Below, piece by piece: positions 1,982-5,537 of a stretch of 12,462 nt of DNA; position 1 is the first letter of the stretch, and each line of letters begins with the position of its first letter. Below the pieces are notes generated by a model. The model worked only from the letters and a program-made list of their open reading frames with translations, made no database searches and was not told the origin of the DNA. The translations under genes and the position numbers were made by a program. The DNA lies in NCBI RefSeq assembly GCF_000955955.1, contig NZ_JYJG01000510.1, positions 1 through 12,462 on the forward strand, given 5' to 3'. The DNA comes from Lentzea aerocolonigenes (GTDB lineage: Bacteria > Actinomycetota > Actinomycetes > Mycobacteriales > Pseudonocardiaceae).

Positions 1982-2467
1982 ATGGAGATCTTCGACATCC
2001 CGGTCGCCACGCTCGCGGGTGAGCCGGGCGACCTGAGCCCGTTGCGCGGCAAGGTGCTGCTCATCGTCAACGTCGCCTCGCGCTGCGGCCTCACCCCGCA
2101 GTACGCGGGCCTGGAGCGGCTCCAGGAGAAGTACGGCGAGCAGGGCTTCTCGGTCGTCGGCTTCCCGTGCAACCAGTTCATGGGCCAGGAGCCGGGCAGC
2201 TCAGAGGAGATCGCCACGTTCTGCTCCACGACCTACGGGGTGTCGTTCCCCCTGTACGAGAAGATCGAGGTCAACGGGGCGGACGCGCACCCGCTCTACC
2301 AGGCGCTGACGCAGCAGCCGGACGCCGACGGCACCGCCGGCGACGTGCAGTGGAACTTCGAGAAGTTCCTCGTGTCGGGCGAGGGCGAGGTGCTCGGCCG
2401 GTTCCGTCCCAAGGTGGAGCCCGAGGACCCGACGATCACCCAGGCGATCGAGGCAGCGCTCCGCTAG
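1982..2467 (+). CDS. Glutathione peroxidase family (thioredoxin-type, Cys)
   Basis: This 161-residue protein is a full-length GPx with a thioredoxin fold and no signal peptide, so it is cytosolic. The peroxidatic cysteine is C35 in NVASRCGLT. The other catalytic tetrad members are Q69 (GQEPG), W124 and N125 (WNFEKF). GFPCNQF (60-66) is the second family signature. A further cysteine, C81 in EEIATFC, matches the resolving cysteine of two-cysteine, thioredoxin-dependent GPx enzymes. Despite the name it therefore probably uses thioredoxin, as is usual in bacteria, and actinomycetes generally lack glutathione. Substrates in this class are H2O2 and organic or lipid hydroperoxides. The gene is convergent with, and overlaps by 4 bp (CTAG), the catalase-related gene of the lipoxygenase operon. 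That makes detoxification of LOX-derived hydroperoxides an attractive but unproven role. Confidence 0.92.
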   Translation: MEIFDIPVATLAGEPGDLSPLRGKVLLIVNVASRCGLTPQYAGLERLQEKYGEQGFSVVGFPCNQFMGQEPGSSEEIATFCSTTYGVSFPLYEKIEVNGADAHPLYQALTQQPDADGTAGDVQWNFEKFLVSGEGEVLGRFRPKVEPEDPTITQAIEAALR

Positions 2468-3420
2468 TCCGCGCCTCGCCCCAGTTGGCTGGGGCGGTAC
2501 GCGACCTTGCGGGCGCGCATCACCTCACCCAGCGGCCGGTGCTCGACGACCGCGTTCCACGGATCGAACTTCGCGGCCTCCACCTCGGCCGCGAAGTCCT
2601 CGTCCGGCTCCTGCCGGCCGATCACCAGGCGCGCGACGGTCTGGTACGGCGAGTCCCAGATCGCCGCGGCGTCCTCGATCGGGGTGCGGGCCTCGTCGAG
2701 GAAGAACTGCACCTGCAGCTCGTGCACCAGCGGGGCCTGCGCCAGGCGGGAGTAGATGTCCGCCGACCAGTCGTCCTTCGCCTGCGGGTTCACCTGCGCG
2801 GAAGCCGCCCGCAGCCGTACGCGGACCGCGTACGGGCCGTAGGAGATCGGTGCCGCGCTGAAGAAGTCCTCGGTCGCGAACCCGCTGAACGGCTTGTTCA
2901 GCGCGGCCCGCACCTCCTTGAGGTTGCCGAACAGGCGCGGCGAGCGGAGCAGGGCGCGCAGGATCCCGGCCAGCCCGCCACCACCGGCCGTGGTGACCTG
3001 GCTGAACTCCCTGCTGGTCGACGAGCTGAACTTCTCGTGGTTGATCAGCACGAAGTCCTGGCTCGCGGCCGGACCGCCGAACACGGACCGACCGTCCACA
3101 CCGAGCACCTTGAACGCGAAGCCGCGGATGTCCGGCACGTGGTCGGGCGCCCGGTCGAACCCGCCGTTGGACAGCCGGACCCGCACCTCGTAGGTGGCCT
3201 CGGTCGCGAAGATGCCCTGCCTTGCCTCCGGTGGCAGGCCCTCGACCACCTCCAACGTCGCCCGCAGCGCCGGGCGCTGCTTGCGGTGCAGCGCCCGGCC
3301 CGTGCCGAACCGCGCCGACTTGCGTTGCTGCATCGCGACGAACAGCTCCGCCTGGTCGCGGTGGCGCTGCGCCTCGTCCGGTGCGACGACCTCTTGCCAG
3401 TTCGTGCTCGGTGTGGTCAT
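2464..3420 (-). CDS. Catalase-related haem protein (LOX partner)
   Basis: This 318-residue protein is far shorter than true catalases (about 480 or more residues) but keeps the haem-site landmarks. A distal His, H45 in GRALHRK, aligns with the catalase RVVHAKG segment. DIRGFAFK (97-104) is the conserved catalase core. R304-x3-Y308 in RKVAY matches the proximal Arg-x-x-x-Tyr haem ligand. Such minimal catalase-like proteins form a group related to allene oxide synthase of coral and the catalase-related domain of Anabaena, which act on fatty-acid hydroperoxides rather than H2O2. The residue before the distal His is Leu44, not the Val of true catalases. The gene starts 8 bp after the lipoxygenase stop with only a poor GAGG very close to the ATG, which suggests translational coupling. 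Its 3' end overlaps the convergent gpx gene by 4 bp. Monofunctional catalase is unlikely; the exact product is unknown. Confidence 0.85.
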   Translation of the reverse strand: MTTPSTNWQEVVAPDEAQRHRDQAELFVAMQQRKSARFGTGRALHRKQRPALRATLEVVEGLPPEARQGIFATEATYEVRVRLSNGGFDRAPDHVPDIRGFAFKVLGVDGRSVFGGPAASQDFVLINHEKFSSSTSREFSQVTTAGGGGLAGILRALLRSPRLFGNLKEVRAALNKPFSGFATEDFFSAAPISYGPYAVRVRLRAASAQVNPQAKDDWSADIYSRLAQAPLVHELQVQFFLDEARTPIEDAAAIWDSPYQTVARLVIGRQEPDEDFAAEVEAAKFDPWNAVVEHRPLGEVMRARKVAYRPSQLGRGAD

Positions 3421-3428
3421 GGCCTCGC

Positions 3429-5177
3429 TCAGATGTTGGTGCTGTTGGGGATCAACGACGGCCGCAGGTACTCGTACGGCACGGCCCGGCGGCGGTTCCT
3501 GGCGACGATCTCGGCCTCGATGCTGCCGAGATCCGACTGGAAGCGCTGGTGCCCGGCGGCGACCGGAGTGCCCTTGAAGTCGTTCTCGTAGTCGCCGAGG
3601 ACGGTGTGGTGGATGGAGCCGAGGAAGTGCATGACGCAGAACTGCTGCACGGCCACGTCCAACGGCGGCAGGTTGTCGAGCCAGTCGGTCTCGGTGTGCC
3701 CCTTGCCGGTGGGCTCGGGGGTGTAGCCCGCCAGCGGGTTGGCCGGCAGGAACGCCAGGTGGTCCTTCTGCGCGAAGTTCACCGCGGCGTGCTGCGGGCC
3801 CGCGGTCCAGATCACCATGGTCAGGATCTCCGCAAGATCCTGCAAGTCGGCGATGTGTCCTGGGGTGGCGCCGAAATCCCGGACCTGACCGCCGTCCGGT
3901 GACGCCACCTCGGCCGCCCACGCCTGCAGCTCGTGGTCGCCCTGGACGTCGGCGTCGCCGCGGTAGTAGGTGGACACGAACGTGCCGACCCACTCCGAGA
4001 TCGCCTGCCACACCAGCAGACCGTCGTCGCGGTACGGGAAGTGCGGCAGCTCGCGGCTCTCCCGCGTGCCGGTCGACGCGAGCGCCGCCGGCAGGTAGTT
4101 GCCGCGGAACGAGCGCTGGGCGCGGTGCTTGGCGAGCCACGGGTAGGTGCTCGCGAGGTCGGACCCGATCAGGTACTCGACCGCCTTTCCCGGCTGGATC
4201 AGCAGCTCGACCGCGAGCTTGTTGATCGAGAACGTGCCCTCGAAGTGCCGCTTCAGCAGCACGGCGACCGGGTGGTTGGCCGCGAGGTTGCGCACCGCGG
4301 CGAGCAGCACGGGCTCGCTCATCAGGTGCGTGAAACCCAGGTGCGTCAACACTTCGTGGTAGGTGTTGTGCGCCGAGAGCACGCAGTTCTTGGCGAGTCT
4401 CCACGAGTAGCCGTCGGCCGGCGTGTAGATCTCCCGGCCCGCCGGGTCCTGGCCGCACTGGATCGCGAACGGCCGCAACTCGCCCCCTCGGCGCGGCACG
4501 CAGAACGCGGCCATCGGCGCGTACATGTACTTCGGGGCCTGCGGGTGCTTGCCGTTGTCCAGTTCGGACATGGCCTCGTAGTCCACCCAGTACACGCGGC
4601 CTTCGGCGATGGCGGTCGCCAGGCTGTCGCTCGCGAACCCGGGCAACGCCGTGAGGTGCTCGTCGGTGATCGGGAACTTGCCGGGGACCGCGGTCATCCG
4701 GTGCAGCCGGGTCGGGTCCGGCCCGGCCACGAAGCACTCGGCGAAGTACTCGTCGGTCTCGAACCGCTCGACGACCGACGGCGGCTGGGCCAACGCGAAA
4801 ACGTCTCGGAAATCCTGCAGGCTCTTTTGTCTCAATTCGCCGGTCGTCCCGCCGGGAACGGGCATGAAGTAGTCGACCAGCCCGGCCATGTCATCGGCCC
4901 GGATCATCTGCGCCAGCTTCACCGGCGCCAGCGGCTGCAGTTCGTGGACGAAATTCCACCGGCCCCTGCGCTTGAGCAGGCGGAGGTTCATCCGCAGCTT
5001 TTCCTGGGCTTCGAGGGACTTGAGCTGCCAGAGCTTGTCCGGGCCGTCGTCCGCGGTCGTACCTGCGGCGACCGGGAAACCCATCTCCATGTTGTACCGG
5101 TAAAAAGACCGTACCCCGGCAACCTGTTCAGCACGTTCTTCCCGGCTGTCGTGCTGCGAAATGAGATACTCCGCCAC
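3429..5177 (-). CDS. Lipoxygenase (non-haem iron fatty-acid dioxygenase)
   Basis: Lipoxygenases insert O2 into polyunsaturated fatty acids to give hydroperoxides. All five iron ligands can be placed in this 582-residue protein: H274 and H279 (H-E-V-L-T-H, the His-x4-His pair, preceded by the family-typical SWRLAK), H463 and N467 (QHAAVNF), and the C-terminal carboxylate of I582 in the ending IPNSTNI. The ligand spacings match the family. It has no signal peptide and appears to lack the N-terminal PLAT beta-barrel of plant and animal enzymes, so it is a compact cytosolic bacterial form. The start is GTG at 5175-5177, with GGAGGA about 4 nt upstream. It is the first gene of an operon with the catalase-related gene. 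Regio- and stereospecificity cannot be read reliably; the region aligning with the Ala/Gly stereocontrol position lies near residues 326-334. Palindromes upstream at 5191-5227 suggest regulation. Confidence 0.93.
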   Translation of the reverse strand: MAEYLISQHDSREERAEQVAGVRSFYRYNMEMGFPVAAGTTADDGPDKLWQLKSLEAQEKLRMNLRLLKRRGRWNFVHELQPLAPVKLAQMIRADDMAGLVDYFMPVPGGTTGELRQKSLQDFRDVFALAQPPSVVERFETDEYFAECFVAGPDPTRLHRMTAVPGKFPITDEHLTALPGFASDSLATAIAEGRVYWVDYEAMSELDNGKHPQAPKYMYAPMAAFCVPRRGGELRPFAIQCGQDPAGREIYTPADGYSWRLAKNCVLSAHNTYHEVLTHLGFTHLMSEPVLLAAVRNLAANHPVAVLLKRHFEGTFSINKLAVELLIQPGKAVEYLIGSDLASTYPWLAKHRAQRSFRGNYLPAALASTGTRESRELPHFPYRDDGLLVWQAISEWVGTFVSTYYRGDADVQGDHELQAWAAEVASPDGGQVRDFGATPGHIADLQDLAEILTMVIWTAGPQHAAVNFAQKDHLAFLPANPLAGYTPEPTGKGHTETDWLDNLPPLDVAVQQFCVMHFLGSIHHTVLGDYENDFKGTPVAAGHQRFQSDLGSIEAEIVARNRRRAVPYEYLRPSLIPNSTNI

Positions 5178-5190
5178 GAATCCTCCACCC

Positions 5191-5202
5191 TGCTCGCGAG
5201 CA
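5191..5202. promoter_or_regulatory. Perfect 12-bp palindrome upstream of the lipoxygenase
   Basis: TGCTCGCGAGCA is a perfect 12-bp palindrome ending 13 bp before the lipoxygenase GTG, just upstream of its Shine-Dalgarno sequence. It lies where a repressor would block the promoter or early transcript, so an operator is the simplest reading. No regulator gene adjoins the operon, so the binding protein is unknown. Confidence 0.45.
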
Positions 5203-5203
5203 A

Positions 5204-5227
5204 AAAAGTGATGATCGCACCACTTTT
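5204..5227. repeat. AAAAGTG/CACTTTT inverted repeat (terminator or operator)
   Basis: Perfect 7-bp arms, AAAAGTG (5204-5210) and CACTTTT (5221-5227), flank a 10-bp spacer in the most AT-rich patch of the window. Read on the minus strand the stem is followed by a run of six T (5202-5207), so it could be a weak terminator of the upstream metal-transport operon, which ends at 5265. It could equally be an operator or the AT-rich promoter of the lipoxygenase operon. The stem has little GC, which argues against an efficient terminator. Confidence 0.4.
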
Positions 5228-5264: not shown

Positions 5265-5537
5265 CTACTCCTGGGGGTTCACCCAGTCGATGTCTTCCCA
5301 CGGCACTTCCCGAGTGCCGTGGTGCAGGACGCGAGAGAGTCGTTCGAGCACCCACGGCCGTTGGATGCCGGGCCGTTCGAACCCGAGCAGCCGCCCGCGC
5401 CACCGCGGGGTCACCAGCACCCGGACGACCCGCTGCCGGCCGTGCTCGTCGGCTTCGGTCAGCAGGTCGGCCACCCGGCCGAGCGGGCGTCCCGCGCGGT
5501 CCCGGACGGTTCGTCCCAGCAGGTCACTCGCCAGCAT
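5265..5537 (-). CDS. Small PRC-barrel-like protein, last gene of Nramp operon
   Basis: This 90-residue protein is soluble. Its N-terminus, LASDLLGRTVRDRAGRPLGRV, is a clear PRC-barrel opening: a strand, a Gly-Arg turn, a second strand, then the usual VVRVLVTPR and closing VPWEDIDWV strands. PRC-barrels are small beta-barrels found in the photosynthetic reaction-centre H subunit, in RimM and in actinobacterial transporter accessory proteins; they bind partners or sense rather than catalyse. The ATG at 5535-5537 lies inside the upstream gene, with a 14-bp overlap, so the two are translationally coupled. This is the fourth and last gene of the operon. A cytosolic partner or sensor role for the transporter is inferred from position only. 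Confidence 0.75.
   Translation of the reverse strand: MLASDLLGRTVRDRAGRPLGRVADLLTEADEHGRQRVVRVLVTPRWRGRLLGFERPGIQRPWVLERLSRVLHHGTREVPWEDIDWVNPQE

Follow-up and report, generated by a model that had tools for sequence, protein, structure and literature searches.

A paired lipoxygenase and catalase-fold gene in Lentzea aerocolonigenes as a candidate fatty-acid hydroperoxide unit

Signalling by polyunsaturated fatty acids is commonly ascribed to plants, animals and fungi, and to a few bacteria. The actinomycete Lentzea aerocolonigenes carries a lipoxygenase (LOX) gene directly followed by a gene for a small catalase-fold heme protein (CAT), and the question raised by this locus is whether the two proteins act in succession on one lipid. 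The DNA analysed, called the window here, has 12,462 bases and is an entire contig (NZ_JYJG01000510.1). Bacterial LOX are rare, being reported from <0.5% of sequenced species (PMC6612559). We found the LOX-CAT cassette to be a real two-gene unit, in which LOX probably makes, and CAT consumes, a fatty-acid hydroperoxide. If this is true, antibiotic-producing soil actinomycetes hold a self-contained unit for making and consuming hydroperoxides.

The two-gene unit and its distribution

On the minus strand of the window, a PRC-barrel gene (5265-5537) is followed by the LOX gene (P0001; 3429-5177, 582 aa, GTG start) and then by the CAT gene (P0002; 2464-3420, 318 aa, ATG start). The gap between the LOX stop and the CAT start is 8 bp (3421-3428, minus strand), with a GAGG-like ribosome site directly before the ATG. 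The sole Pfam match of LOX is PF00305 (171.5 bits against a curated cut-off of 23.6); Pfam gave no match to a PLAT domain, and the protein consists of the catalytic domain only. Its set of five iron ligands is complete (H274, H279, H463, N467 and I582), the first four being invariant in 19/19 aligned LOX and the C-terminal residue being Ile in 17/19 and Val in 2/19. The first-pass annotation had described a LOX with these five ligands followed after 8 bp by a 318-residue catalase-related protein, and its residues and coordinates were confirmed. PF00305 is matched only once in the 10.25-Mb genome.

The limits of the unit were drawn by comparison with Lentzea kentuckyensis. When the window was compared by blastn with the 13,746-base L. 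kentuckyensis locus, a single substantial match was obtained (2463-5193, minus strand; 88.8% over 2734 columns), reaching from 16 bp ahead of the LOX start to the CAT stop, with unrelated flanks on both sides. The many short, scattered tblastx pieces outside this block, which were reported under BLAST sum statistics, were read as noise because blastn showed only the block and two further matches of 54 and 30 nt. Since the DNA match is confined to the two genes, LOX and CAT appear to have travelled jointly, or the DNA around them to have been replaced. Both genes are under purifying selection, the nonsynonymous (dN) and synonymous (dS) divergence between the two species being 0.056 and 0.29 for LOX, and 0.089 and 0.35 for CAT. 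A glutathione peroxidase gene (1982-2467) converges on the CAT gene with a 4-nt overlap at the stops; it was considered as a member of the unit and dropped, as the L. kentuckyensis match stops at the CAT end.

LOX of the P0001 type was found in 4/397 genomes of the order (one only 37% identical, one with an in-frame stop), in 1/394 genomes of the class (L. aerocolonigenes itself) and in 13/361 genomes of the family, where nine matches are full-length at identities of at least 71% and four are weak or partial. Merging these scans with a scan of named genomes gave 13 distinct genomes with this LOX. Three of them have CAT in tandem, namely L. aerocolonigenes, L. kentuckyensis (L002), where the gap is again 8 bp, and an uncultured actinomycete known from a metagenome-assembled genome (MAG; L006, same contig as G054:C71), where the gap is ~24 bp and the contig ends within CAT. 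In Fodinicola (L010/G033), a divergent, interrupted CAT relative adjoins a LOX gene having an in-frame stop. The pair therefore recurs outside this strain, in L. kentuckyensis and the MAG, so that the lack of conservation that would have refuted the first-pass proposal was not found; it is nevertheless missing from most LOX genomes, 9/13 of which (two Crossiella-type, five Kutzneria-type and two Amycolatopsis) have no CAT match in the LOX flanks. Because these nine show no CAT beside LOX, LOX works without it there, which weighs against a joint function. Six of the unpaired genomes were searched whole (L003, L004, L005, L007, L008 and L009); CAT relatives were absent from four, L004 gave a 34% match and L008 a 37-residue fragment.

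The unpaired genomes would also suit the view that LOX and CAT lie together by chance, the gene order being otherwise unrelated. We regard this as highly improbable, since the tandem occurs with gaps of 8, 8 and ~24 bp in three genomes of differing flanks, and CAT at >60% identity is present in only 2/397 genomes of the order, each time adjoining the LOX that is itself so rare there. Among Lentzea genomes, 2/24 have CAT. The pairing is thus real yet a minority state, reached via loss or transfer. The trees of LOX and of CAT broadly match, with L006 grouping with P0152 in the former (100/100) and with P0061 in the latter (98/90). For both P0152 and P0061 a longest contig of 3723 bp is listed, which suggests a fourth LOX-CAT pair. 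P0129 (LOX) and P0088 (CAT), both with a longest contig of 12669, may be a further one; Pseudonocardia sp. GCM10023141 has both LOX (P0155) and CAT (P0082), listed with different longest contigs. The search for pairs and fusions thus yielded pairs; no LOX-CAT fusion was seen, in a search that left out proteins >1.75x the query and so did not properly cover fusions. The listed LOX homologues range from 484 to 619 aa.

The catalase-fold protein and its relatives

The residues mapped in CAT are R42-A43-L44-H45, R99, the distal N127, the proximal R304 and Y308, and R315; the distal His45 and proximal R304/Y308 named in the first-pass annotation were upheld by this mapping. A reading of the distal Asn as Ser was dropped, as both MAFFT and the profile alignment set N127 on the catalase Asn. 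By alignment, profile and model, CAT has the catalase fold with distal His and Asn and a proximal Tyr; the AlphaFold2 model used was built on a 59-row alignment and supersedes an earlier one with a predicted local distance difference test score (pLDDT) of 76.5. The distal pair is Leu44-His45, not Thr-His, and Thr before the distal His occurs in 0/63 aligned rows of the CAT alignment. PF00199 scores 21.4 bits on CAT, under the cut-off of 25; some CAT homologues carry a precomputed PF00199 match. The homologue list is dominated by Kribbella proteins at ~60-65% identity.

The nearest solved relative of CAT, by profile and by fold, is the 33-kDa catalase-related protein of M. avium paratuberculosis (PDB 3e4w/3e4y), whose distal site likewise reads R-A-L-H; CAT also has the minicatalase-type size of ~300 aa and the catalase core only. 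The profile E value against CAT is 1.6e-19 for 3e4w and 2.6e-6 for the coral allene oxide synthase (cAOS) 1u5u, which ranks below several true catalases. The M. avium paratuberculosis protein has organic-peroxide-dependent peroxidase activity. CAT could accordingly serve self-protection, removing organic peroxides or H2O2 that stem from LOX or from metabolism in the manner of a minicatalase-like peroxidase, with no dedicated oxylipin product. The complement of the genome would fit such a role: its only PF00199 match is the 307-aa minicatalase P0243 (L016:1417-2340; 2e-54 to 3e4w), and a PF00199 search of the 10-Mb genome found no full-size catalase, whereas L. kentuckyensis has one.

The tree speaks against this role. 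CAT is separate from true catalases and minicatalases with support of 100/100, while the minicatalases group with the true catalases; a clustering of CAT with true H2O2 catalases, which would have refuted the first-pass proposal, was thus not found. CAT is also outside the clade of P0243, to which 3e4w is much nearer (2.1e-54) than to CAT; the M. avium paratuberculosis protein is of the P0243-type clade, only ~21-23% identical, with no LOX link seen. The tree has 60 rows and a midpoint root, carries a long-branch warning, and contains no coral or cyanobacterial cAOS or Anabaena-type sequence. L042, L048 and L051 (divergent heme motifs) and L083 (a duplicate of L067) were left out of it, and the fragments L080 and L085 yielded no alignment row.

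Gene neighbours across the wider clade

Neighbours were surveyed at 34 P0002-like loci (L018-L051), the matches of the searches in the order and the class to which a locus was assigned; the survey covered the frame itself and 1.5-kb flanks. A cyclooxygenase (COX)-like heme peroxidase/dioxygenase (An_peroxidase) lies in or beside 21/34 of them, two being weak (L018, L028), and was found near 0/12 minicatalase or true-catalase loci; the Fisher p of 1.4e-4 is overstated, since the loci come from related species. Pfam confirmed An_peroxidase in 6/6 scanned loci among the 21. In nine loci the CAT-type domain and then the dioxygenase lie in a single open frame, and L024-like loci have the reverse order. 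Because the clade differs in this way from the minicatalases and true catalases, the linkage favours fatty-acid hydroperoxides as the putative substrate of CAT, and its confinement to the P0002-like clade argues against mere self-protection. The single-frame loci are L020, L021, L023, L034, L039, L040, L043, L045 and L046 (Pfam was run on L020, L040 and L043), and their distal pair is Phe-His, conserved where read.

Besides the unpaired LOX genomes, several observations weigh against a hydroperoxide unit. The dioxygenase link belongs to sister clades and not to the P0002 subclade itself; the 34 loci, being from related species, do not count as independent, and no dioxygenase flanks 13/34 of them or the further P0002-like loci L066 and L067. 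No LOX or dioxygenase lies in the 14.5 kb analysed at L036 or the 7.4 kb at L037, the two P0002-type loci of this survey, and neither was found in the genomes of these proteins (G591, G711). On the Shinella plasmid NZ_CP132313.1 (L098), a distant CAT relative comes after a trio of xanthine dehydrogenase genes and overlaps its end, a context that would suit peroxide scavenging. Weighing these points with the tree and the linkage, we hold a self-protective role of CAT to be unlikely, and a unit in which LOX makes and CAT consumes the hydroperoxide remains the preferred reading.

Known systems and the predicted chemistry

In the ranking of solved structures for P0001, the Pseudomonas aeruginosa 15S-LOX 4g32 (8.6e-95) comes before the Cyanothece LOX and the coral 8R-LOX (8.6e-66). 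A322 of P0001 aligns with the sole A-to-G difference, within that block, between the P. aeruginosa LOX chains 4g32 and 5lc8, the latter of which we take to be the A420G mutant. According to Coffa's rule, to which exceptions exist, Ala at the Coffa site leads to S stereochemistry. Because A322 falls on the Coffa-site Ala of that P. aeruginosa enzyme in the alignment, P0001 is predicted to form an S, not an R, hydroperoxide. Apart from this shared Ala, P0001 differs from the secreted P. aeruginosa enzyme in its shorter N terminus, in the lack of an obvious signal peptide on inspection by eye, and in being paired with CAT.

Thr immediately before the distal His is reportedly a hallmark of cAOS (Mashhadi 2016). 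The cAOS/LOX fusions (Plexaura homomalla, Capnella; Anabaena, Acaryochloris) resemble the present pair in that a single unit joins LOX to a heme domain of catalase fold, and cAOS-type domains likewise have distal His and Asn and a proximal Tyr (PMC5617202, PMC11719350). In the coral fusion the Thr-His domain forms an allene oxide, and the LOX is 8R (PMC5617202). Here, in contrast, the genes are separate, CAT has 318 aa, Leu44 stands where Thr would be expected, and LOX is a predicted S-LOX. The first-pass annotation had proposed the coral/Anabaena chemistry as separate genes, with CAT turning the LOX hydroperoxide into an allene oxide or allylic epoxide. The unit itself and the non-catalase clade are in keeping with that proposal; the Leu-His pair, the predicted S product, the low-ranking cAOS profile and the lack of a LOX or dioxygenase at L036 and L037 are not, and we consider it quite unlikely.

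Unfused pairs of a dioxygenase and a catalase-related protein are already known from Nostoc punctiforme and Fusarium. The gene of the Fusarium graminearum enzyme Fg-cat presumably adjoins a LOX gene. Fg-cat shows peroxidase activity on a 13S-hydroperoxide and forms a keto-epoxide product (PMC11719350); compared by description, it resembles CAT as an unfused catalase-fold enzyme acting on a hydroperoxide, but it is fungal and CAT is bacterial. N. punctiforme has a linoleate 10S-dioxygenase and a catalase-related 10S-hydroperoxide lyase (Brash 2014; PMC9579011, PMC13049297, PMC9410191), the latter giving lyase products from the dioxygenase's hydroperoxide (PMC9579011, PMC9410191). Both that pair and LOX-CAT are bacterial and consist of separate genes, and LOX and CAT are, as in the Nostoc type, an adjacent fatty-acid dioxygenase and catalase-fold gene; the Nostoc dioxygenase, however, is a COX-like heme protein (PF03098), whereas a non-heme iron LOX (PF00305) is present here. 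What is new is the compact actinomycete block in which LOX is combined with a distinct catalase-fold subfamily that has a Leu-His pair. No publication on a LOX-with-catalase pair in actinobacteria was found in one open-licence literature library, which does not prove that none exists.

In the two-step unit, a cytosolic LOX would, as its family leads one to expect, form a hydroperoxide from a polyunsaturated fatty acid, most probably the S-hydroperoxide. CAT, presumably co-transcribed, would take over this hydroperoxide at a heme ligated by Tyr308 and, as mapped, faced distally by His45 and Asn127, and would break the O-O bond. The product would be an alcohol, formed by reduction, or an epoxy-alcohol or keto-epoxide, in preference to an allene oxide. 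Because the distal pair is Leu-His, unlike the Thr-His of the coral synthase, allene oxide would not be the default product, and reduction or epoxide/ketone formation seems at least as likely. Sequence does not decide between the allene oxide, peroxidase/keto-epoxide and lyase outcomes of the known enzymes; peroxidase-type or epoxide/ketone chemistry is what the Leu-His site, together with the closest fold, points to. Given six matches over the cut-off to the fatty-acid desaturase family in the genome, an endogenous polyunsaturated (diene) substrate is possible, if unproven. More tentatively, the pair could be a mobile actinomycete oxylipin module with interchangeable halves, in which LOX replaces the COX-like dioxygenase beside the Leu-His CAT subfamily and the product is new for bacteria. 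The pair would be a simple, separable system in which to ask what directs a catalase fold towards peroxide removal, lyase, epoxide or allene oxide chemistry; with the Leu-His variant and the COX-like link of the sister clades, this question can be put directly to the unfused proteins once purified.

Some minor observations concern the surroundings of these genes. Upstream of LOX lies an imperfect inverted repeat with 10-nt arms and a 4-nt loop (5204-5227, no strand assigned), for which the terminator of the preceding gene and an operator are candidate readings; a conserved operator was dropped, as the repeat is not seen in L. kentuckyensis. Plasmid LOX (eight records) were considered as CAT-partnered, an idea given up because the three examined (Acaryochloris, Nostoc and Rhodococcus) show no gene annotated as catalase in the stretch viewed. 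On the Rhodococcus qingshengii plasmid NZ_CP089607.1 (L097), the LOX gene comes 24 bp after an acyl-ACP thioesterase-domain gene, possibly a step that supplies free fatty acid. The L. aerocolonigenes genome has PF03098 heme-peroxidase matches at L100 and L104, one of which carries two in-frame stops. At L061:1192-3665 and L064:1210-3721 (G826, G811), a divergent LOX-like gene (PF00305 8e-10 and 4e-14) adjoins a PF03098 gene, and these LOX-like and animal-heme-peroxidase neighbours appear to be a further dioxygenase pairing in Pseudonocardiaceae.

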